Positions 194 through 63,737 of a DNA stretch of 64,000 nt are shown in pieces. Position 1 is the first letter of the stretch. Each line of letters starts with the position of its first letter. The translations under genes and the position numbers were made by a program. Location of the stretch: assembly GCA_031262405.1 (NCBI GenBank), contig JAISHS010000025.1, positions 1 through 64,000 of the forward strand, written 5' to 3'. The stretch is from Oscillospiraceae bacterium (GTDB lineage Bacteria; Bacillota; Clostridia; Oscillospirales; Oscillospiraceae). The notes below the pieces were generated by a model. It worked only from the letters and a program-made list of their open reading frames with translations, was not told the DNA's origin and made no database searches.

Positions 194-1063
194 TCATGTG
201 TCCGCGCGACTCAATCCTCTGTCCTCTGTCCTCTCGCCTCTGTCCTCTGGAATTTTGTCCTTTCTAAGCACAAAATTCATTGCGTTGCACATTATCAAAA
301 TCAACCCGCAGGCATAGAGCCAGAGCATAAACACGATAATCGACGCCAGCGAGCCATAGAGCAGCGGATACCTCGAGGACACGTTAATGATATTCGAGAA
401 GAAAAAGCTTACGATTACAATCAGCACCGACGCTAAAATCGCCCCGGGAAAGACCTTAGTGCGCACGCCCTTGGGCGCCGTAATCCGATAGAGCGCGTAA
501 ATTATAAACATAAAGATCACCAGCAAAACCGGATACTTCACCGCCTGCCAGATGGAAATCCCCCGCAGGAGCGGAATCGCATTGGCAAGCCTCGTCATAA
601 TCCAGTTGCCGCTGACCATAACCAGCCCGCCGAAATAAATCGCCCCCAAAAACAGCAGCGAAAAGAGAAAGCTGAAGGCCAGCCCGAAGATACCCTTAAA
701 GCGCGACTCACCCTGAATGTCCGCCATAATCCCATGCAGCGTTCGAAAGGCCGCCGCCGAGGTGGTCAGCATTCCCAGCGCGCCCGCCGTTATAAGTCCG
801 GGGTTGTTGTGCAGCTGAACATAGTTGAGATAGTCTATAATAACGGTCAGCGCGCTCTCGGGAATAACCCCCTCGAAGTCCACCAGCGCAAGGCGCAAAT
901 CGGGCACCATGCCCACGAGCACGGCGTGTACGCAGATGAGCGTCGGAAAAACAGAGAGCATGAGGCAATAGGAGAGCGCCGCCGCTTTTCGCGGAACGTG
1001 CTTCCCGTCATAAATCTCCACCAGCTCGACTATCGCCGCTAATAATTTTTTCTTCCCCGTCAT
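194..1063 (-). CDS. YihY/BrkB family inner membrane protein
   Basis: 289-residue polytopic membrane protein of the YihY/BrkB family (UPF0761), with about six hydrophobic segments between residues 28 and 265. Early annotations called the family ribonuclease BN; no enzymatic role is accepted and its function is unknown. The start ATG is preceded by AGGAGAC. It is the last gene of the dcw run, separated from ftsZ by a strong hairpin, so it probably has some independent expression. Oddity: about the last 17 residues (after KIP, reading EDRGERTEDRG...) are translated from an AGAGGAC heptanucleotide array, so the C-terminal tail is repeat-derived and low in complexity. Family assignment is firm; function is not. 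Confidence 0.85.
   Translation of the reverse strand: MTGKKKLLAAIVELVEIYDGKHVPRKAAALSYCLMLSVFPTLICVHAVLVGMVPDLRLALVDFEGVIPESALTVIIDYLNYVQLHNNPGLITAGALGMLTTSAAAFRTLHGIMADIQGESRFKGIFGLAFSFLFSLLFLGAIYFGGLVMVSGNWIMTRLANAIPLLRGISIWQAVKYPVLLVIFMFIIYALYRITAPKGVRTKVFPGAILASVLIVIVSFFFSNIINVSSRYPLLYGSLASIIVFMLWLYACGLILIMCNAMNFVLRKDKIPEDRGERTEDRGLSRADT
214..249 (-). repeat. AGAGGAC heptanucleotide array inside the yihY 3' end
   Basis: Five 7-bp units on the minus strand: AGAGGAC, AGAGGCG, AGAGGAC, AGAGGAC, AGAGGAT, followed by TGAGTCGCGCGGAC. The units carry no stop codon in the yihY frame and are translated. The GAGTCGC motif after the array also follows heptad arrays of other sequence near serA and mazG. 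Confidence 0.85.
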
Positions 1064-3355: not shown

Positions 3356-3473
3356 AATTGAGAATTGAGAATGCAGAATTGAAAATTAGTGGAGTCGCGC
3401 AAAGCGCGACAATATTTTAATCATCGCAAAGCGATACCTTCATTGTCAATTGTCAATTCTCAATTCTCAATTA
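3356..3473. repeat. Fold-back repeat element (family B), copy 1
   Basis: Left arm of AATTGAG-type heptads (3356-3389), hairpin GTCGCGC-AAA-GCGCGAC (3394-3410), hairpin ATCGC-AAA-GCGAT (3423-3435), and a right arm of inverted heptads (3441-3473). The arms are inverted repeats of each other. The right arm runs into murA and supplies its last codons (ATT GAG AAT) and TGA stop. A second complete copy in the same orientation lies at 63640-63737. Confidence 0.9.
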
Positions 3474-14661: not shown

Positions 14662-14720
14662 GTCGCCTTCGGCGACTCATTCTATCTATTATCTTTTATC
14701 TTTTATCTTTTATCTATTAT
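14662..14720 (-). repeat. AGATAAA heptad array plus triloop hairpin at the serA 3' end
   Basis: Heptads on the minus strand (AGATAAA three times, then AGATAAT and AGATAGA) span the end of serA and supply its last codons (ATA ATA GAT AAA AGA) and TAA stop. ATGAGTCGCC-GAA-GGCGAC follows, with the same GAGTCGC core seen after AATTGAN arrays. Confidence 0.85.
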
Positions 14721-15878
14721 CCGAACTCTCACAACTCCCGCCAGCTTCTCAACCTCGCGGGCGACGTCTTCTTCAATCTTACCGTTCGTGTCCACTATCA
14801 CATAAGCATACTCGCCTCTTTCGCGGCCTGCGGCATTTACAGTCGTCAGTCCGGAGCCGGTTATAACTTCGACACAGGAGCTTAGAATTCCGTGGTTTCC
14901 CTTGGAGATCACACAAAGTCTCCCCTCCCCGGCTCTGTCGATTGAAAGGCAGGGCAGGTTGACGGAGTTTATAATGTTGCCGTTCTTCACATAGTCAATG
15001 AGCTCCCGCGCCGCCATAATGGCGCACCTGTCCTCGCTCTCCGGCGTGGATGCACCCAGATGCGGAATGTGCAGAACGCCCGGCACTCCCGCAAGCGCCC
15101 CATTCGGAAAGTCCGTGACATAGCGCGCGAGCTTCCCGCTCGCCAGCGCCGCCTTAATCGCCTCGTCATCCGCCAGTTCAGCGCGCGCAAGATTGATTAT
15201 CCGAACGCCGTCCTTCATCTTCGCCAGCGTCTCGGCGTTAATCATATGGTGGGTCTGACCCTTGATATAAGGCAGCTGCAGGGTAATATAATCGCTGTTC
15301 TTATAAATAGCGTCCAAGTTTTTATCAATCTTCACCTTCCGCGAGAGCCCCAGCGCCGCTTCAACCGAAAGATAGGGGTCATAGCCCACAACGCGCATTC
15401 CCAAATTGACGGCGGCGTTGGCGACCTTCGCGCCGATCGCGCCGAGTCCGACGACGCCCAGAGTCTTGCCCATAATCTCCGGCCCGATAAAGCTGCTCTT
15501 GCCCTTCTCTACGAGAGAAGCCACCTCATCGCCCTTATCGGCGAGAGAGCTCACCCAATTGATGCCGCCGACAATATCGCGAGAGCTGATAAGCAGTCCG
15601 CAGAGCACCAGCTCCTTAACCGCCTCGGCATTTGCGCCGGGGGTGTTGAAAACCGCAATTCCGCTCTCGGCGCAGCGGTCGATGGGAATGTTGTTCGTAC
15701 CCGCGCCCGCTCTTGCAATGCAGAGCAGATTCGGCGCAAACTCCATCTCGTGCAGCTTCGCGCTGCGCACCAAAATCGCCTCCGGGTTCTCTGAATCATT
15801 GTCAATATCAAAGCCCGCGTCGGTAAGAATGCCCAGACCCAGATGAGAAATCTTGTTTAAAGCCTTAACCTTATACAT
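14703..15878 (-). CDS. serA: D-3-phosphoglycerate dehydrogenase
   Basis: NAD-dependent oxidation of 3-phosphoglycerate to 3-phosphohydroxypyruvate, first step of serine synthesis. The Rossmann motif GVVGLGAIGAKVA, the substrate region ARAGAGTNNIP and the catalytic HLGASTPE (His) are present, with a C-terminal ACT-like domain (about residues 320-391) that usually gives serine feedback. The start at 15878, with GAGGTGG upstream, overlaps the end of serC by 8 bp. 391 residues is the short bacterial form. The C-terminal IIDKR comes from the heptad array. Confidence 0.95.
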   Translation of the reverse strand: MYKVKALNKISHLGLGILTDAGFDIDNDSENPEAILVRSAKLHEMEFAPNLLCIARAGAGTNNIPIDRCAESGIAVFNTPGANAEAVKELVLCGLLISSRDIVGGINWVSSLADKGDEVASLVEKGKSSFIGPEIMGKTLGVVGLGAIGAKVANAAVNLGMRVVGYDPYLSVEAALGLSRKVKIDKNLDAIYKNSDYITLQLPYIKGQTHHMINAETLAKMKDGVRIINLARAELADDEAIKAALASGKLARYVTDFPNGALAGVPGVLHIPHLGASTPESEDRCAIMAARELIDYVKNGNIINSVNLPCLSIDRAGEGRLCVISKGNHGILSSCVEVITGSGLTTVNAAGRERGEYAYVIVDTNGKIEEDVAREVEKLAGVVRVRIIDKR

Positions 15879-19661: not shown

Positions 19662-19691
19662 GTTCAGCAGAAGTGATTTAACAATATTTCT

Positions 19692-19725
19692 CGATTGTCA
19701 ATTTTCAATTCTCAATTCTCAATTG
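19692..19725 (-). repeat. AATTGAN heptad array at the end of the AI-2E permease gene
   Basis: Minus strand: AATTGAG, AATTGAG, AATTGAA, AATTGAC, AATCGAG. The first unit supplies the last codon (AAT) and the TGA stop of the permease. No hairpin follows before the convergent desulfurase gene. Confidence 0.85.
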
Positions 19726-24849: not shown

Positions 24850-25088
24850 TCAATCTGTTTATACATCGCAGGGGCGTCCGCCTTCGCGGCGGTCTCATTG
24901 ACCGCTAAAACCTCCACGCGCGTAATGCGCCCGCCGAGCCTCAGCTCAATTACGTCCCCTATTTTGACATTATAAGAGGGCTTGGCGATTTTCCCGTTCA
25001 CCTGAACCCTCTGGGAGTCCGCCGCCTCGGCGGCCACCGTGCGCCGCTTAATAAGCCGCGACACCTTCAAATACTTATCCAACCTCAT
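24846..25088 (-). CDS. rqcP: S4-domain RNA-binding protein RqcP (YabO)
   Basis: 80-residue protein that is almost entirely an S4 domain (MRLDKYLKVSRLIKRRTVA..., VNGKIAKPSYNVKIGD). B. subtilis RqcP acts with RqcH in C-terminal alanine tailing on stalled 50S subunits. The start at 25088 (GAGG upstream) is preferred to the track start at 25133, which lies in repeat sequence. It follows mazG and spoVB in the same order as B. subtilis yabM-yabN-yabO, but yabP and yabQ do not follow. The stop codon is part of the family A repeat. Confidence 0.85.
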   Translation of the reverse strand: MRLDKYLKVSRLIKRRTVAAEAADSQRVQVNGKIAKPSYNVKIGDVIELRLGGRITRVEVLAVNETAAKADAPAMYKQIE

Positions 25089-25111
25089 TCTTCGTCCCTC
25101 GTTTTTTTGTT

Positions 25112-25168
25112 GTCGCGCCCCGCGCGACTCCATAAATTGTCAATTCTCAATTGTCAATTGTCAATTAG
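25112..25168 (-). repeat. AATTGAN heptad array plus GTCGCGC hairpin at the mazG 3' end
   Basis: Minus strand: AATTGAC, AATTGAC, AATTGAG, AATTGAC, then ATGGAGTCGCGC-GGG-GCGCGAC. The first unit supplies the last codon and TGA of mazG. Third occurrence of the GTCGCGC hairpin; loop GGG here, AAA in the two complete family B elements. Confidence 0.85.
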
Positions 25169-28011: not shown

Positions 28012-28039
28012 TATCTGTTATCTCTTATCTGCTATCTGC
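28012..28039. repeat. TATCTNN heptad array upstream of the kinase gene
   Basis: Four units with exact 7-bp period: TATCTGT, TATCTCT, TATCTGC, TATCTGC (AGATANN on the other strand). It lies between the promoter and the AAGGAGAT ribosome-binding site, so it would be transcribed into the 5' leader. Confidence 0.8.
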
Positions 28040-31531: not shown

Positions 31532-34500
31532 ATGAGAAAAGAACTTTCAAAAGTCCTGTCCATGCTCCTCGCCGTCTGCATGGTCCTCGGCCTTTTTGCC
31601 ATCGCCCCTGTATCAGCAGACGCTGCGGAGGCTGAAGTTGAGGAAGTTGAGGATGCGCCCACCATTACCTACATATCTCCAGATCACGAAAATTGGACAT
31701 CCCTAAAAGAAAAGGTTAATCCGAACCTTGGCCTAGATTTAGTTTTAACTTTTTCTGAGCCTATGGATACCGCTATTGGGAATGCTCGTTTAAGAAAGTT
31801 TAATGATGATAGATATATAGTTCCAACTACTACTAGTTGGACTGACGATAACAGGAAGTTGACGATATCTGTTGCGGCGAATGCTGAATATTTCACGTAT
31901 GATACGCAATATGAGTTTTTTGCTCCCAAGGGTAGTCTAACGGATGCTAGTAAATTTCATACTCCTATCGCTTCAAATTCGTTAGATGAAAATCTCCGCT
32001 TCACCTTCACCACCATTGACGCGCCTAAGGTGCAAATCTGGTGGAATGAAACCGATTCCTCCGTTTCCACCGATTATGTTCCCGGTCAGAGGGCAACCCT
32101 GCCTAATGTTGTGCTATATAAAGATTTAGGCGGCACTACCGGTTGGTGCGACGCTGGTACTGATACAATTCTTGATCAAGCCGATCTCTCCGATAGAAAT
32201 GATCATACCGGCTGGACGCTCAACTGGACAGGCACCACGCAGGCAGGAGCCGCCTATAACTCTTCCGACGCTCCCGTCCTCGCTGGCAACTACGCAGTCA
32301 CCGCCACATATGATTACGGCGGATATGACATCACCGGCGAAGCGAATTACACCATCACTGACACCACCTACCCGACCATTGACTTTCCGCTACCCACCGC
32401 CAAATACGGCCCGGAGGACGCAGATAAATACGTTCCGAACGATGCTCTCACCGGCATCGTCGGCAAAGTCGACAGCACCAAACCTCTCATTCTTACCTAT
32501 AATTTCTCCGAGCCAATGCGCGCGGCTATCGGCAACGCAACTCTTAAAACTGGCGGCGTAGCCGTTCCAAACACTGACAAATCCGTCTACTCTCATGCGT
32601 GGAGTAATGGCGGCAAAACTCTTACAATCACGGTCAATGCCAATGCTCTCTTGCCGGGCACGGATTACGTCTTCTATGGCACCGACAACCCAATTCGCGA
32701 CCGGAACGGTCTCGCGCTGAGTGCGGATTCGACAGGTACTAACATTGACTTCTCCTTCTCCTTCACCACCGCAGCGGACACAACCCAACCGCAGCTGAAT
32801 AGTTTCCTCCTCCCTGGCGATGATGAAGAATTCGGTGTGAATCCGGGTCAAGACTTCACTATTACAGGTGACGTCTGGGTGGACCGGGAATTTCCTATCA
32901 CGGTTGTGTTTGACGAGCCGATGAAGAAGAACAGCTTCAAGGCTTCTCTCACCCCCGTTGACGCTGCCGGTGTATCGCTGCCGGACAGAGAAGTGCTCTC
33001 GGCAACCCAAAGCCAGTGGAGTGCGGACGGCACTACCCTGTCTTTCTCGCTCCCGTCCAATATGTCCTACGGTACGCGCTATAAGATGGTTTTAACCGGA
33101 AGCAGCGCAAAGCTCGAAGACCTCGCCGGTAACGAATTCTATTTCGGTTCCGATTTCGCCCTCTATTTCACGACCCAATCCGCCCCGCAAACCAGCGATG
33201 AACAGCTCATCTTAGAAGAAGATGGTCTCTATCTGGTAAAAGATGATGGTACCACTCGGATTTCGAGGAAACTTGTGCCGGAAGTAAATCTTAACGGATT
33301 GTACAATGGCTTCCAGAGCGGTACATATACTTTTGACGGAAGCACTCTCACGCTCAACAACGTGGTATACTATTCGACTACCGACATTGCGCTGATAATT
33401 CAAACAGGCGATGACGTAAAAATCAATATCACTGGAGCAAACAGCTTTATCTCGAACAAAAAGAATGCCACTTCTGACTCCGTCGGTATTTACTCTTTCA
33501 GTAGTCTTACGATTGAAGCAGCCAATGGAACCGCCACGCTCTATGCTAAGGGCGGTGTTAACACGACGGCTAGAAACTTCGGCGTATTTATGTATCAGGG
33601 TTTGCTGACGATTAACAGCGGCAATCTGATCGCCGAAGGCCGTAATGGTGGAGACGCTAGTCGCGGAATAAACGGAAACAAAATAACAGTTAACGGCGGC
33701 TCATTGACTGCAAAGGGTTTCGATGGTGCCGTAGTCTTTAACAATAAAGAATTCGTCGCTCCAACGTGGAACTATGAGTATTCATATGGCGATCTCGATG
33801 AGGATGAAGTCCTAACTTACATTGTCAGCAAACCTGATTCTGCTGGAAAAATGGTTCCTCAAGACGCTCTTCAAGAATCCGCAGCGGCTATCGAAAAGAC
33901 AAACTTTGTAAATAACCAATACGCCTACATCGCCGTCCTGCCGGAGATAACAACCAAAACTCTCGCCCCGATGACAGCCGGAACAGCCAATACATATGGC
34001 CTTAGTGCAAAAGGCGTCCAACCGGTAACGTGGGATTTGACCGATATTGACTGGGACGAAGAAAGCATTTCGCCCAACGCTAATACTAATAATATTGATA
34101 TCAACATCACTCAAGCTGGTGTAATCACCGTTGGTAAAGATACCCCCTACGGCACTTACACCTTCATCGTCACCCTCACCGACTCCGTCGGTAAACACAA
34201 CGTGCGCTACACGCTGGTAGTCGAACCGTTGGAAAAAATCGTAACTGCAAATTTCAATTCTTCTCAACATAAAAACATCCCCAATTCAACAGCCTTCGGC
34301 CATGTATACGGTGATGCGACCCAAACATCTTTCCATCCAATTATGGTTTTGTGGGAATCCTACGACCTAAAAACTGAAATTGAAAGAATTAAATGGAATG
34401 ACTCCTTCGATCCTGCTATTTGGTCTCTCAGTTGGACCGGCGAGACTGACGACGGCAATGAATACGACAGCAGTGTCACTCCTACAGACCCCGGCGTCTA

Positions 34501-36367
34501 TCATGCAGTAGTAACCTATGACGACAGTATAATTCTTTCTGTCTCCGAGCCTTCCCCTGCCTATACAATCGCCCCCAAAACCCTCACTTGGGCGACGAAC
34601 GGCAAGGTTTTTGACAAAGACTACGACGGAACGACAGCCTCGACAATCGACTCCAATAATCTGCCCAGCCTTGTGGGGATTATAACCGACGACACGGTGG
34701 CAGTGGACATTTCTGCTGCGACTGCGCCCTTTCCGAATTCAGGAGCTTTACCACAGTTGCGATACCTAAATGGCGTCGGCTTCGGAATCACGGGTGCGCA
34801 CGCTTGGAAATACACCATCTCAACTCAGCCCAGACTGACAGGCAAGATTAACCCCGCCGAAATCACCTTCCCCGATGCTATTGAAGATACCTACCTCAAT
34901 GGTCTGTTTGCCGAGTTTTCCACTACAGATCCGGATACGTATAGAACGATAAGAGAGCAGCTTCAGAACCTTGCACAAGCGGCAATCGGCGTACAAACGG
35001 GTACTGAACCCGACCAATACGAGAGCGTGGCCGGCGAATATAACTGGTATGTCTACGACGACGATCTGGAAGAATATCGTAAGGTCAATTCCGTTCAAGA
35101 TCAAAACGACCTTGCGCTGGGCACTCACACGCTTTACATCGGATTCACCACCAGTAACACGAACTACGAATCTCCTCAATACTATGGCCCCGTTACCGTC
35201 ATAGTCACAAACAACACCATCACGGGCACTGTCAGAGACAAAGAATATAACGGCACCAGCACCTTTACTTTCAGCAGCTTGGTTGTCAAAAATTCATTGG
35301 ATGTAACGATAGCAAATTACAATATTGATCCGATCGGCTTCTCCTTCCAGTGGTATGAGCTTGATGGGTCGCTTGTCAGCGGAAGTCCTAAGGACGTGGG
35401 TACCTATTATGTCCAAGTCACCTATAACAACGGGACGGACTACGCCTCCGCCATCATCGGCGACCCGACGGACCCCGACGAATGCTACACCATCACCGAA
35501 CCCGTCAATCCCCCTCCCCCCCCACCCGGCGGCGGTGGCGGCGGTGGCGGCGGCGGTGGCGGCGGTGGCGGCGGCGACCCCGTAGCCGAAGAGTTCACCG
35601 TTACCTTCAATTCAATGGGCGGCACTGCGGTTGCCAGCCAGACCGTTGACTCCGGCGAGACCGCAATCGAGCCGAGAGACCCGATCTATACCGGATATGC
35701 CTTCATCGGCTGGTTCACGGACGAGGACTGCACCGAGGAATATGACTTCGACGACGCAGTTACCGCCGACCTCACCCTCTACGCCGGCTGGGTAAAAGAG
35801 CCCGAAGCTTGGGACAACCCCTATACTGACGTCAAAGAGAGCGACTGGTTCTATAACGACGTCATGTTTGTAACCGTTGAAGACCTCATGAATGGCACCA
35901 CAGACACCCTCTTCTCCCCCTCTAGCACCACCACAAGGGCTATGGTAGCCACCATACTCTACCGTCTGGAAAATGAGCCTTCAGTTGCAGGATTAAGTAC
36001 CGATTTCACCGATTTATCGGCTGATTGGTACAGAAACGCCATAATCTGGGCAGATAACAGAGGAATTGTCAATGGCGTCTCATCCACCAAATTTGCTCCC
36101 GATTCCCCTGTCACAAGAGAGCAATTAGTAACGATTTTGTTCCGCTATTCGGTCTATAAAGGCTATAACACGAACCTTTCAGACAACTTAGCTGGTTACA
36201 CCGACGCCTCTCAAATCTCCTCCTATGCCCTCCCCGCCTTCAAATGGGCTGTCGCCACCGACCTCATAAACGGCCGCTCTGACACAACGCTTGTCCCCGG
36301 CGGCGAGACCCTCCGCAGAGAGCTTGCGGTAATCCTAACCCGCTTCGTTACCTACACAAATAGTTAG
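31532..36367 (+). CDS. Large SLH-domain surface protein with Ig-like and InlB-type repeats
   Basis: 1611-residue secreted protein. Signal peptide (LSKVLSMLLAVCMVLGLFA...), three Ig-like repeats sharing an LTFSEPM-type strand (about residues 60-150, 310-410 and 455-550), a beta-helix-like region resembling Cthe_2159-type carbohydrate-binding domains (about 560-740), further Ig/MBG/YDG-like domains (about 800-1320), a Pro then 16-Gly linker, one InlB B-repeat (FTVTFNSMGG...LYAGW) and three C-terminal SLH domains (about 1430-1611) that anchor it to pyruvylated wall polymers. Likely an S-layer-associated adhesin or polysaccharide binder; the ligand is unknown. The first third looks richer in A+T than neighbouring genes. 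Monocistronic. Confidence 0.88.
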   Translation: MRKELSKVLSMLLAVCMVLGLFAIAPVSADAAEAEVEEVEDAPTITYISPDHENWTSLKEKVNPNLGLDLVLTFSEPMDTAIGNARLRKFNDDRYIVPTTTSWTDDNRKLTISVAANAEYFTYDTQYEFFAPKGSLTDASKFHTPIASNSLDENLRFTFTTIDAPKVQIWWNETDSSVSTDYVPGQRATLPNVVLYKDLGGTTGWCDAGTDTILDQADLSDRNDHTGWTLNWTGTTQAGAAYNSSDAPVLAGNYAVTATYDYGGYDITGEANYTITDTTYPTIDFPLPTAKYGPEDADKYVPNDALTGIVGKVDSTKPLILTYNFSEPMRAAIGNATLKTGGVAVPNTDKSVYSHAWSNGGKTLTITVNANALLPGTDYVFYGTDNPIRDRNGLALSADSTGTNIDFSFSFTTAADTTQPQLNSFLLPGDDEEFGVNPGQDFTITGDVWVDREFPITVVFDEPMKKNSFKASLTPVDAAGVSLPDREVLSATQSQWSADGTTLSFSLPSNMSYGTRYKMVLTGSSAKLEDLAGNEFYFGSDFALYFTTQSAPQTSDEQLILEEDGLYLVKDDGTTRISRKLVPEVNLNGLYNGFQSGTYTFDGSTLTLNNVVYYSTTDIALIIQTGDDVKINITGANSFISNKKNATSDSVGIYSFSSLTIEAANGTATLYAKGGVNTTARNFGVFMYQGLLTINSGNLIAEGRNGGDASRGINGNKITVNGGSLTAKGFDGAVVFNNKEFVAPTWNYEYSYGDLDEDEVLTYIVSKPDSAGKMVPQDALQESAAAIEKTNFVNNQYAYIAVLPEITTKTLAPMTAGTANTYGLSAKGVQPVTWDLTDIDWDEESISPNANTNNIDINITQAGVITVGKDTPYGTYTFIVTLTDSVGKHNVRYTLVVEPLEKIVTANFNSSQHKNIPNSTAFGHVYGDATQTSFHPIMVLWESYDLKTEIERIKWNDSFDPAIWSLSWTGETDDGNEYDSSVTPTDPGVYHAVVTYDDSIILSVSEPSPAYTIAPKTLTWATNGKVFDKDYDGTTASTIDSNNLPSLVGIITDDTVAVDISAATAPFPNSGALPQLRYLNGVGFGITGAHAWKYTISTQPRLTGKINPAEITFPDAIEDTYLNGLFAEFSTTDPDTYRTIREQLQNLAQAAIGVQTGTEPDQYESVAGEYNWYVYDDDLEEYRKVNSVQDQNDLALGTHTLYIGFTTSNTNYESPQYYGPVTVIVTNNTITGTVRDKEYNGTSTFTFSSLVVKNSLDVTIANYNIDPIGFSFQWYELDGSLVSGSPKDVGTYYVQVTYNNGTDYASAIIGDPTDPDECYTITEPVNPPPPPPGGGGGGGGGGGGGGGGDPVAEEFTVTFNSMGGTAVASQTVDSGETAIEPRDPIYTGYAFIGWFTDEDCTEEYDFDDAVTADLTLYAGWVKEPEAWDNPYTDVKESDWFYNDVMFVTVEDLMNGTTDTLFSPSSTTTRAMVATILYRLENEPSVAGLSTDFTDLSADWYRNAIIWADNRGIVNGVSSTKFAPDSPVTREQLVTILFRYSVYKGYNTNLSDNLAGYTDASQISSYALPAFKWAVATDLINGRSDTTLVPGGETLRRELAVILTRFVTYTNS
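35528..35575 (+). repeat. GGC/GGT trinucleotide tract coding poly-glycine
   Basis: Sixteen consecutive Gly codons (GGC and GGT only) preceded by a C-rich Pro run, between the Ig-like part and the InlB repeat. A length-variable linker by slippage in multiples of three is plausible. Confidence 0.85.
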
Positions 36368-63100: not shown

Positions 63101-63137
63101 TATCTATTATCTAATATCTTTTATCTATTATCTGATC
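63101..63137. repeat. TATCTNN heptad array in a divergent spacer
   Basis: Units TATCTAT, TATCTAA, TATCTTT, TATCTAT, TATCTGA with exact 7-bp period between the rsuA-type gene (-) and the DUF4830 gene (+). Confidence 0.8.
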
Positions 63138-63188: not shown

Positions 63189-63641
63189 ATGTTTGTCTAC
63201 ACTGTAAAATGGAACAAAAAAACAGCGCTTCTAATCATCCTCATCGCGGCGCTTGTAATCTGCGCGTTAATTCTGCTGATCGGCGCGCTGAAAGGCTCAG
63301 GCTCCGGCGCGCGTGTCTCAAACACGCAGGAGCGCGTGGAGTATCTCGAGAGTCTCGGCTGGGAGATACAGCCCGAGTCGGAAATCGAGAGGTCTGTCGT
63401 AATACCAAGAGAGTTTTCGGAAATCTATTCCGCTTACAATCAGCTTCAGCTGGCGCAGGGCTATGATCTGTCCAAATACTGCGGACTGAATGTCAATGTC
63501 TATACATATTCGATTTTAAATTACAAGGGCTACACCGGCCACGTCGTCGCGGAGGTCTATGTCTACAACAGCGAGATAGTCGGCGGCGACGTCCACTCTC
63601 TCGAGCTGGACGGCTTCATGCACGGCCTGAAGGCGAAATAA
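63189..63641 (+). CDS. DUF4830 domain-containing membrane-anchored protein
   Basis: 150 residues: membrane segment at about 9-32, short linker, then a DUF4830-type domain (YLESLGWEI, VIPREFSEIYSAYNQLQ, GGDVHSLELDGFMHGL). Found in clostridia; function unknown. GGGAGGGG before the ATG at 63189 selects this start. The TAA stop merges with an AATTGAN array. Confidence 0.8.
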   Translation: MFVYTVKWNKKTALLIILIAALVICALILLIGALKGSGSGARVSNTQERVEYLESLGWEIQPESEIERSVVIPREFSEIYSAYNQLQLAQGYDLSKYCGLNVNVYTYSILNYKGYTGHVVAEVYVYNSEIVGGDVHSLELDGFMHGLKAK

Positions 63642-63737
63642 TTGACAATTGAGAATTGACAATTGACAATTAATGGAGTCGCGCAAAGCGCGACAATTAT
63701 TTCAATCATCGCGAAGCGATACCTTCAATTCTCAATC
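63640..63737 (+). repeat. Fold-back repeat element (family B), copy 2
   Basis: Left arm AATTGAC, AATTGAG, AATTGAC, AATTGAC; hairpin GTCGCGC-AAA-GCGCGAC (63678-63694); hairpin ATCGC-GAA-GCGAT (63708-63720); short inverted right arm TTCAATTCTCAATC. Same order and orientation as 3356-3473. Confidence 0.9.

Follow-up and report, generated by a model that had tools for sequence, protein, structure and literature searches.

The window, i.e. the whole 64-kb stretch of DNA that was analysed, contains arrays of tandem 7-nt units (heptads) at or near gene ends, and at several of these loci a short palindrome stands beside the array. Pfam agrees with the gene names (BrkB/YihY, 2-Hacid_dh, MazG and DUF4830). 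The features were the following:

206-212, minus strand: GAGTCGC beside the yihY class C array, no stable hairpin (z=+1.0).
215-249, minus strand: yihY array, AGAGGAC (class C), at the yihY 3' end; no stop is provided and the ORF reads through.
3356-3387, plus strand: murA composite, left arm, a degenerate AATTGAN array with an AATGCAG unit.
3394-3410, plus strand: murA composite, hairpin 1, with GGAG tag.
3423-3435, plus strand: murA composite, hairpin 2, ATCGC/GCGAT, with a GTAT-type tag read from the other arm.
3441-3472, minus strand: murA composite, right arm, an inverted AATTGAN array at the murA 3' end with the stop codon (3462-3460) inside.
14662-14676, minus strand: serA hairpin GTCGCC-GAA-GGCGAC, preceded by TGA G, on the inner side of the array; fold z=-2.6.
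14683-14721, minus strand: serA array, AGATAAN (class B), at the 3' end of serA, holding the serA stop codon (14705-14703).
19688-19724, minus strand: AATTGAN array without GTCGC hairpin, at the 3' end of an AI-2E family transporter gene.
25112-25128, minus strand: mazG hairpin GTCGCGC-GGG-GCGCGAC with GGAG tag; fold z=-4.2.
25135-25166, minus strand: mazG array, AATTGAN (class A), at the 3' end of mazG, giving its stop codon.
28012-28039, minus strand: AGATAAN-type array without GTCGC hairpin, upstream of a histidine kinase gene.
63101-63133, minus strand: AGATAAN array without GTCGC hairpin, between an RNA pseudouridylate synthase gene and the DUF4830 gene.
63640-63671, plus strand: AATTGAN array at the 3' end of the DUF4830 gene.
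63678-63694, plus strand: GGAG-tagged hairpin of the DUF4830 gene, GTCGCGC-AAA-GCGCGAC.
63708-63720, plus strand: second hairpin at the DUF4830 gene, ATCGC-GAA-GCGAT; behind it, a degenerate inverted array that reaches about 63740.

On the coding (minus) strand of serA, positions 14662-14721 read as (AGATAAN)n followed by AGAATGAGTCGCC-GAA-GGCGAC. At mazG (25166-25112) the order is (AATTGAN)n and then TATGGAGTCGCGC-GGG-GCGCGAC, and at the DUF4830 gene (63640-63694) it is (AATTGAN)n and then AATGGAGTCGCGC-AAA-GCGCGAC. The initial annotation had described four arrays, each followed by GAGTCGC, with a hairpin at three of them and a short stem at yihY; it did not include the murA composite or the arrays without this hairpin at 19688, 28012 and 63101. 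The four sites were read on both strands, and a perfect palindrome on the inner side of the array was indeed present at serA, mazG and the DUF4830 gene, but not at yihY, where (AGAGGAN)n is followed by TTGAGTCGCGCGGACAC and only a GTC/GAC stem is left. Since this stem folds no better than shuffled sequences (z=+1.0), yihY is a weak fourth case. The accompanying claim, that the heptad changes and the hairpin stays, holds for AATTGAN and AGATAAN, which have the GGAGTCGC hairpin in common, its order and orientation relative to the array being fixed, but for AGAGGAC there is one weak case. No match above the gathering score of Rfam was found in the window. A perfect 21-bp GGC/GGT-rich tandem repeat was also observed at 35527-35576, within a long ORF (31532-36367).

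The census was carried out on 459 kb, comprising the 64-kb window and 20 further stretches, about one third of the source genome (1.44 Mb, 78% complete), in which genes were called as simple ORFs. It yielded 77 heptad arrays: 38 AATTGAN (class A), 35 AGATAAN (class B) and 4 AGAGGAC (class C). Seven was the only over-represented tandem period in the source genome, with 8.3 arrays per 100 kb, a density that is skewed upward because the stretches were partly picked around array or hairpin matches; comparisons within the sample are less affected by this choice. Like known oriented heptamers, the arrays are built of several tandem 7-nt units and are dispersed and intergenic. Outward from the gene, the array is followed by a short spacer, mostly ending in GGA or TGA, and then by a palindrome of 13-17 nt, whose stem is GTCGCGC, GTCGCC or a relative; among the tags, GGAG is the most frequent.

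An array in the right orientation faced 32 of the 46 intergenic hairpins of GTCGC/ATCGC type, compared with 4 of the 113 other intergenic hairpins (odds ratio 62, Fisher p=2.4e-18). In a second census a correctly oriented array accompanied 42/65 intergenic and 1/24 genic hairpins, and a single wrong-way case was seen. When the genome-wide search for the hairpins proposed earlier was performed, the hairpins did not prove to be mostly array-less: 28 of the 32 GGAGTCGC hairpins that were read had an array no more than 30 nt upstream. The bare 7-mer GAGTCGC was not enriched in the window (13 occurrences, 12.5 expected). The pattern of array plus hairpin is confirmed as genuine and genome-wide. About 40% of the arrays had no GTCGC-type hairpin and hairpin-less arrays occur in other genomes, so the two parts are separable. 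The hairpin subtype was associated with the array class (p=0.008), mostly via GTCGCCTTGAGGCGAC, which was found with class B only, and other subtypes were common to classes A and B; this partly class-linked distribution, with several subtypes shared, fits co-dispersal with exchange.

Inverted (convergent) pairs were frequent in class A; the class B units were all single, and no inverted pair of this class was seen in the 459 kb. Ten diverged copies of a composite of about 120 bp, with 79% mean column identity when aligned, showed the order array, GGAG-hairpin, AATTTAAATC, ATCGC-hairpin, CATTCATT, inverted array. The murA composite (3356-3472) is complete and double-ended, and it folds as one long structure (-47.5 kcal/mol, z=-8.1). 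In one composite copy hairpin 1 was preserved through a G-C to A-U change. The hairpins were not followed by a T-tract as a rule, their 3' flanks being mostly GGATT, ACATTA or AATTTAAAT, and the serA site gave no terminator call; since the T-tract is lacking as a rule, intrinsic terminators were rejected as an identity for the hairpins. The arrays at L119 16910, L130 9251 and L128 18970 run directly into CGTC-type repeats (CGTCATTGCGGGC.. and CGTCATTCCGGG..), which makes intergenic regions of this kind mosaics of several repeat families.

These arrangements bear on the possibility that the arrays came first, by whatever route, and served as landing pads beside which a REP-like GGAG hairpin inserted. 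In cyanobacteria, small repeats are said to lie inside heptamer arrays, which would suit such an order of events, as do the common occurrence of hairpin-less arrays here and in other genomes and the hairpin subtypes common to both array classes. Insertion into an array, however, should leave array halves of the same orientation on both sides of the hairpin, and the flanking arrays are inverted instead; the wrong-way hairpin was met once only, and the association of subtype with array class also speaks against this order of events. We therefore consider the landing-pad order rather unlikely.

The array block itself is about 32 bp long and contains about 4.6 heptad units. Four full units and a fifth partial or diverged one were present in 30/38 class A and 20/35 class B arrays; longer arrays were few, with nine units at L128 3522 and L120 9580. 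In class A the first positions of the unit are largely kept and the seventh is variable, and in class B positions 6 and 7 vary. The class B unit variants depended on the position in the array (mutual information 0.40, compared with 0.20 after shuffling; permutation p=0.0006), and similarity was higher between loci for units of equal position (0.405) than among the units of a single array (0.30). For class A the positional test was not significant (p=0.115); its length is as fixed as that of class B, and a subfamily with the AATGCAG unit recurs in the composite. Because the copy number is nearly constant, the class B variants are shared by position and the composite with its AATGCAG unit recurs, the arrays appear to be copied as blocks. 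For class B, copying as whole blocks and not expansion in place has been shown; class A arrays were probably copied in the same way.

In many bacteria no long-unit repeat is commoner than the heptanucleotide, and slippage was proposed as its origin (work of Mrazek, summarised in PMC4679880). If polymerase slippage had generated the present arrays locally as simple sequence repeats, with the hairpins as unrelated neighbours, the few arrays of nine units would also be accounted for. Slippage is not expected to fix the copy number near 4.6, to leave the units of one array unlike each other, to make same-position units of class B match across loci, to free the seventh base while the first positions are kept, or to couple an oriented hairpin to the array, and the sampled congeners had no arrays at all; this explanation is thus quite improbable. 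Given the same near-constant copy number, position-specific class B variants and recurring composite, the earlier suggestion of one mechanism that builds 7-bp arrays beside a hairpin from the sequence of the insertion site is not supported.

The outer edge of the array lay within 10 nt of the gene behind it, or overlapped it, in 45/68 cases, compared with 12.6 expected from uniform placement. The heptad strand is directed away from the gene, its orientation being fixed relative to the nearest gene; some arrays stood at the start of a gene or between tRNA genes. Stops in all three outward frames were present in 35/38 class A and 34/35 class B arrays and in none of the four class C arrays, and all-frame stops on the inward strand were never seen; the 69/73 of classes A and B do not represent 69 independent observations, because only two heptad words stand behind them. 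Class A and B arrays often provide the stop codon of the gene behind. SerA is altered from its last codon, the congeners ending in VRVL or VRIL and a stop and the source genome in VRVRIIDKR, with the stop inside the array. Stops inside the array were likewise found in murA, which is about 6-10 residues shorter than in the congeners, and in mazG, which is shorter by about 23 C-terminal residues. Shortening of the gene end was not general (8 array genes with orthologues against 46 others, p=0.88), and a general trimming of gene ends is not supported.

At nine congener loci an HU gene is situated between mazG and the S4-domain gene. It is absent at 25084-25166 of the window, where the array-hairpin occupies the junction of the truncated mazG and the S4-domain gene, and the sampled third of the genome yielded no HU gene.

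Tight placement at stop codons, with all-frame stops facing outward and a stem kept through compensatory change, could also be understood if the unit were not a selfish repeat at all but a cis element selected by the host at mRNA 3' ends, in which the all-frame stop is combined with a stabilising or protein-binding hairpin. Arrays at gene starts and between tRNA genes speak against such a function, and with no T-tract as a rule the hairpins are not intrinsic terminators. Absence from the sampled congeners and patchy occurrence across the order are unlike a conserved regulatory need, and the cis-element explanation is accordingly unlikely.

No AATTGAS arrays were found in 11 congeners and no period-7 arrays in 951 kb sampled from congeners; the GGAGTCGC hairpins numbered 38 in the source genome and 3 in the 11 congeners together. 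Class B arrays were absent from all other genomes among 295 of the order. Class A was patchy, being present in 19/295 genomes of the order, with rich occurrence in G152, G260, G289 and G097, which belong to other families. In G289 the two heptads are AATTGAN and AATGAAT/AATTAAT, and both stand ahead of one hairpin, GGGAAAATCGC..GCGATTTT, so the modular build anticipated by the initial annotation recurs there with a different, species-specific hairpin. In G307 an array leads through CGGAG into a hairpin of another kind, after which come ACATTCA and an inverted array, and in G183 an array is followed by a GGAGTCGG hairpin and GGATT. In G016, a genome of another genus (L106, L060), composite element ends were observed in which two heptads keep a constant order, AACAGTT then ATCAAAT, before CAGAGACG, mirrored across a spacer.

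In the IMG/VR collection AATTGAN arrays occurred in at least 120 stretches, compared with 17 for a permuted word. In two of the viral-collection contigs (L222, L250) the array is followed by a hairpin, a linker rich in A and T and one more segment that is palindromic or similar, the stems being different ones; the hairpin of the source genome was not found in viral contigs. In many of these contigs (IMG/VR, L207-L286) AATTGAN arrays were noticed that have 4-5 units and a seventh base free to vary fully, often adjoining other heptads, e.g. AATTAGA/AGTTAGA, AAGAGTG and GGTTAAC. The exact array-hairpin string gave one match in 84,980 genomes, on a Flavobacterium MAG contig without period-7 array. 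From the comparison with the congeners and the other genomes of the order, the element may have been gained specifically in the source lineage. The congeners (57-73% protein identity) are too diverged to reveal an empty site that has a clean junction or a target duplication; insertion is suggested by the absence from the congeners and by the replacement of gene ends with array sequence.

Neither PF01797 (E<=0.01) nor a RAYT profile built from six relatives detected a Y1/RAYT gene in the source genome, a result that is not final because the genome is 78% complete. None was found in G289, which is 100% complete and array-bearing, nor in G016. Among the genomes of the order that were searched, Y1 genes were present in 10/19 array-bearing and 3/16 array-free ones, a weak association, and no Y1/RAYT locus elsewhere in the order was flanked by arrays. 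No autonomous parent was recognised among the ORFs between convergent arrays 0.3-4.5 kb apart; these encode a Na/H exchanger, a transglutaminase, RecX or a zinc ribbon, or have no recognised identity. Convergent class B arrays at a distance of 2.8 kb, one of them with a GAGTCGC hairpin, enclose a DNA-invertase-like serine recombinase gene (L130 3016-3612); as a candidate parent enzyme this recombinase is a lead only. RAYT-like proteins of related genomes (L188, L189, L191, L194, L195) contain the in-frame inserts VGARIARP, GRAMRAPT and GAIHESPAL, which look like translated GTAG-tagged palindromes (GTAGGGGCGCGCATTGCGCGCCC) within the transposase gene itself.

Array and hairpin together are best explained, with reasonable though moderate confidence, as a non-autonomous REP/MITE-like element that is copied as a block and mobilised in trans. 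Its unit would be the block of about 32 bp with about 4.6 degenerate heptads, a short tag and the GTCGC-type palindrome of 13-17 nt, occurring singly or as inverted pairs that form the composite of about 120 bp. The unit would be inserted by a trans-acting enzyme, most plausibly a hairpin-recognising single-strand transposase of HUH/Y1 type that may have been lost or may be missing from the assembly. Insertions would survive mainly at gene ends, where the all-frame stop could close the interrupted reading frame within about 21 nt, and hairpin and array classes may have been exchanged later by recombination between copies. If a period is not a multiple of three and each unit holds one stop, every frame is closed within three units; this suggests why a period of seven is tolerated, insertion at a gene end doing little harm.

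Several features of the arrays have counterparts in known systems. The Xanthomonas and Nostoc heptamers, (GGGANTN)n and GGGGA(C/T)T, are mostly arrays of four units, dispersed and intergenic; they are oriented to, and lie nearest, the gene behind them, whatever its direction, overlap stop codons and often form convergent inverted pairs, and no link to mobile elements was found (PMC4692102). The present arrays share with them the conserved and free positions, the dispersal, the orientation, the overlap with stop codons and, in class A only, the convergent pairs; the Xanthomonas and Nostoc words differ in being G-rich (G-quadruplex), and no coupled tagged hairpin has been described for them (PMC4692102). 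MacGregor reported TAACTGA direct repeats of 2-6 copies in marine Beggiatoaceae, Cyanobacteria and Bacteroidetes; these occur patchily across phyla, stop all three reading frames and in some cases overlap gene stops (PMC4679880). The word AACTGAT is one base from AATTGAT, and the all-frame stops and patchy occurrence are alike, but the TAACTGA repeats stand mostly just upstream of start codons, use a single word and have no reported hairpin module (PMC4679880).

Heptanucleotide repeats are usually ascribed to slippage, and here a near-constant block is copied whole, faces outward, is coupled to a palindrome and often gives the stop. This brings the scattered reports from Xanthomonas, Nostoc and Beggiatoaceae together into a single, testable element class. 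It is possible, and we put it forward only tentatively, that one trans-acting machinery across phyla installs outward blocks of about four heptads at gene ends with a species-specific target or template word and an interchangeable palindrome, and that it has produced the heptamers of Xanthomonas, Nostoc and Beggiatoaceae as well as those of this order.

The palindromes of the REP/BIME/REPIN family carry GTAG or CGTC tags and are tied to RAYT transposases (PMC3733652, PMC2817692). The present unit resembles them as a short tagged intergenic palindrome downstream of genes, single or in inverted pairs, with high copy number and species-specific stems, and it agrees with the REP/BIME description of a many-copy intergenic palindrome of 20-40 bp, often in inverted pairs. 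It differs in its tag, which is mostly GGAG (GTAT-like at hairpin 2) and not GTAG or CGTC, in the heptad block on the tag side, and in that no RAYT was found in the source genome. Like the Correia and ERIC MITEs, the composite of about 120 bp has inverted ends, lacks coding capacity and folds as one long hairpin; its ends, unlike theirs, are degenerate heptad arrays and not unique terminal inverted repeats, and neither a target duplication nor a parent IS was seen. A report coupling a heptad array to a hairpin was not found in the literature, subscription papers lying mostly outside the search. The arrays belong with the known oriented heptamers and the hairpin resembles REP, but without GTAG/CGTC tag or RAYT, and the combination of the two seems to represent a new form of intergenic repeat in bacteria, of the REP/MITE type.
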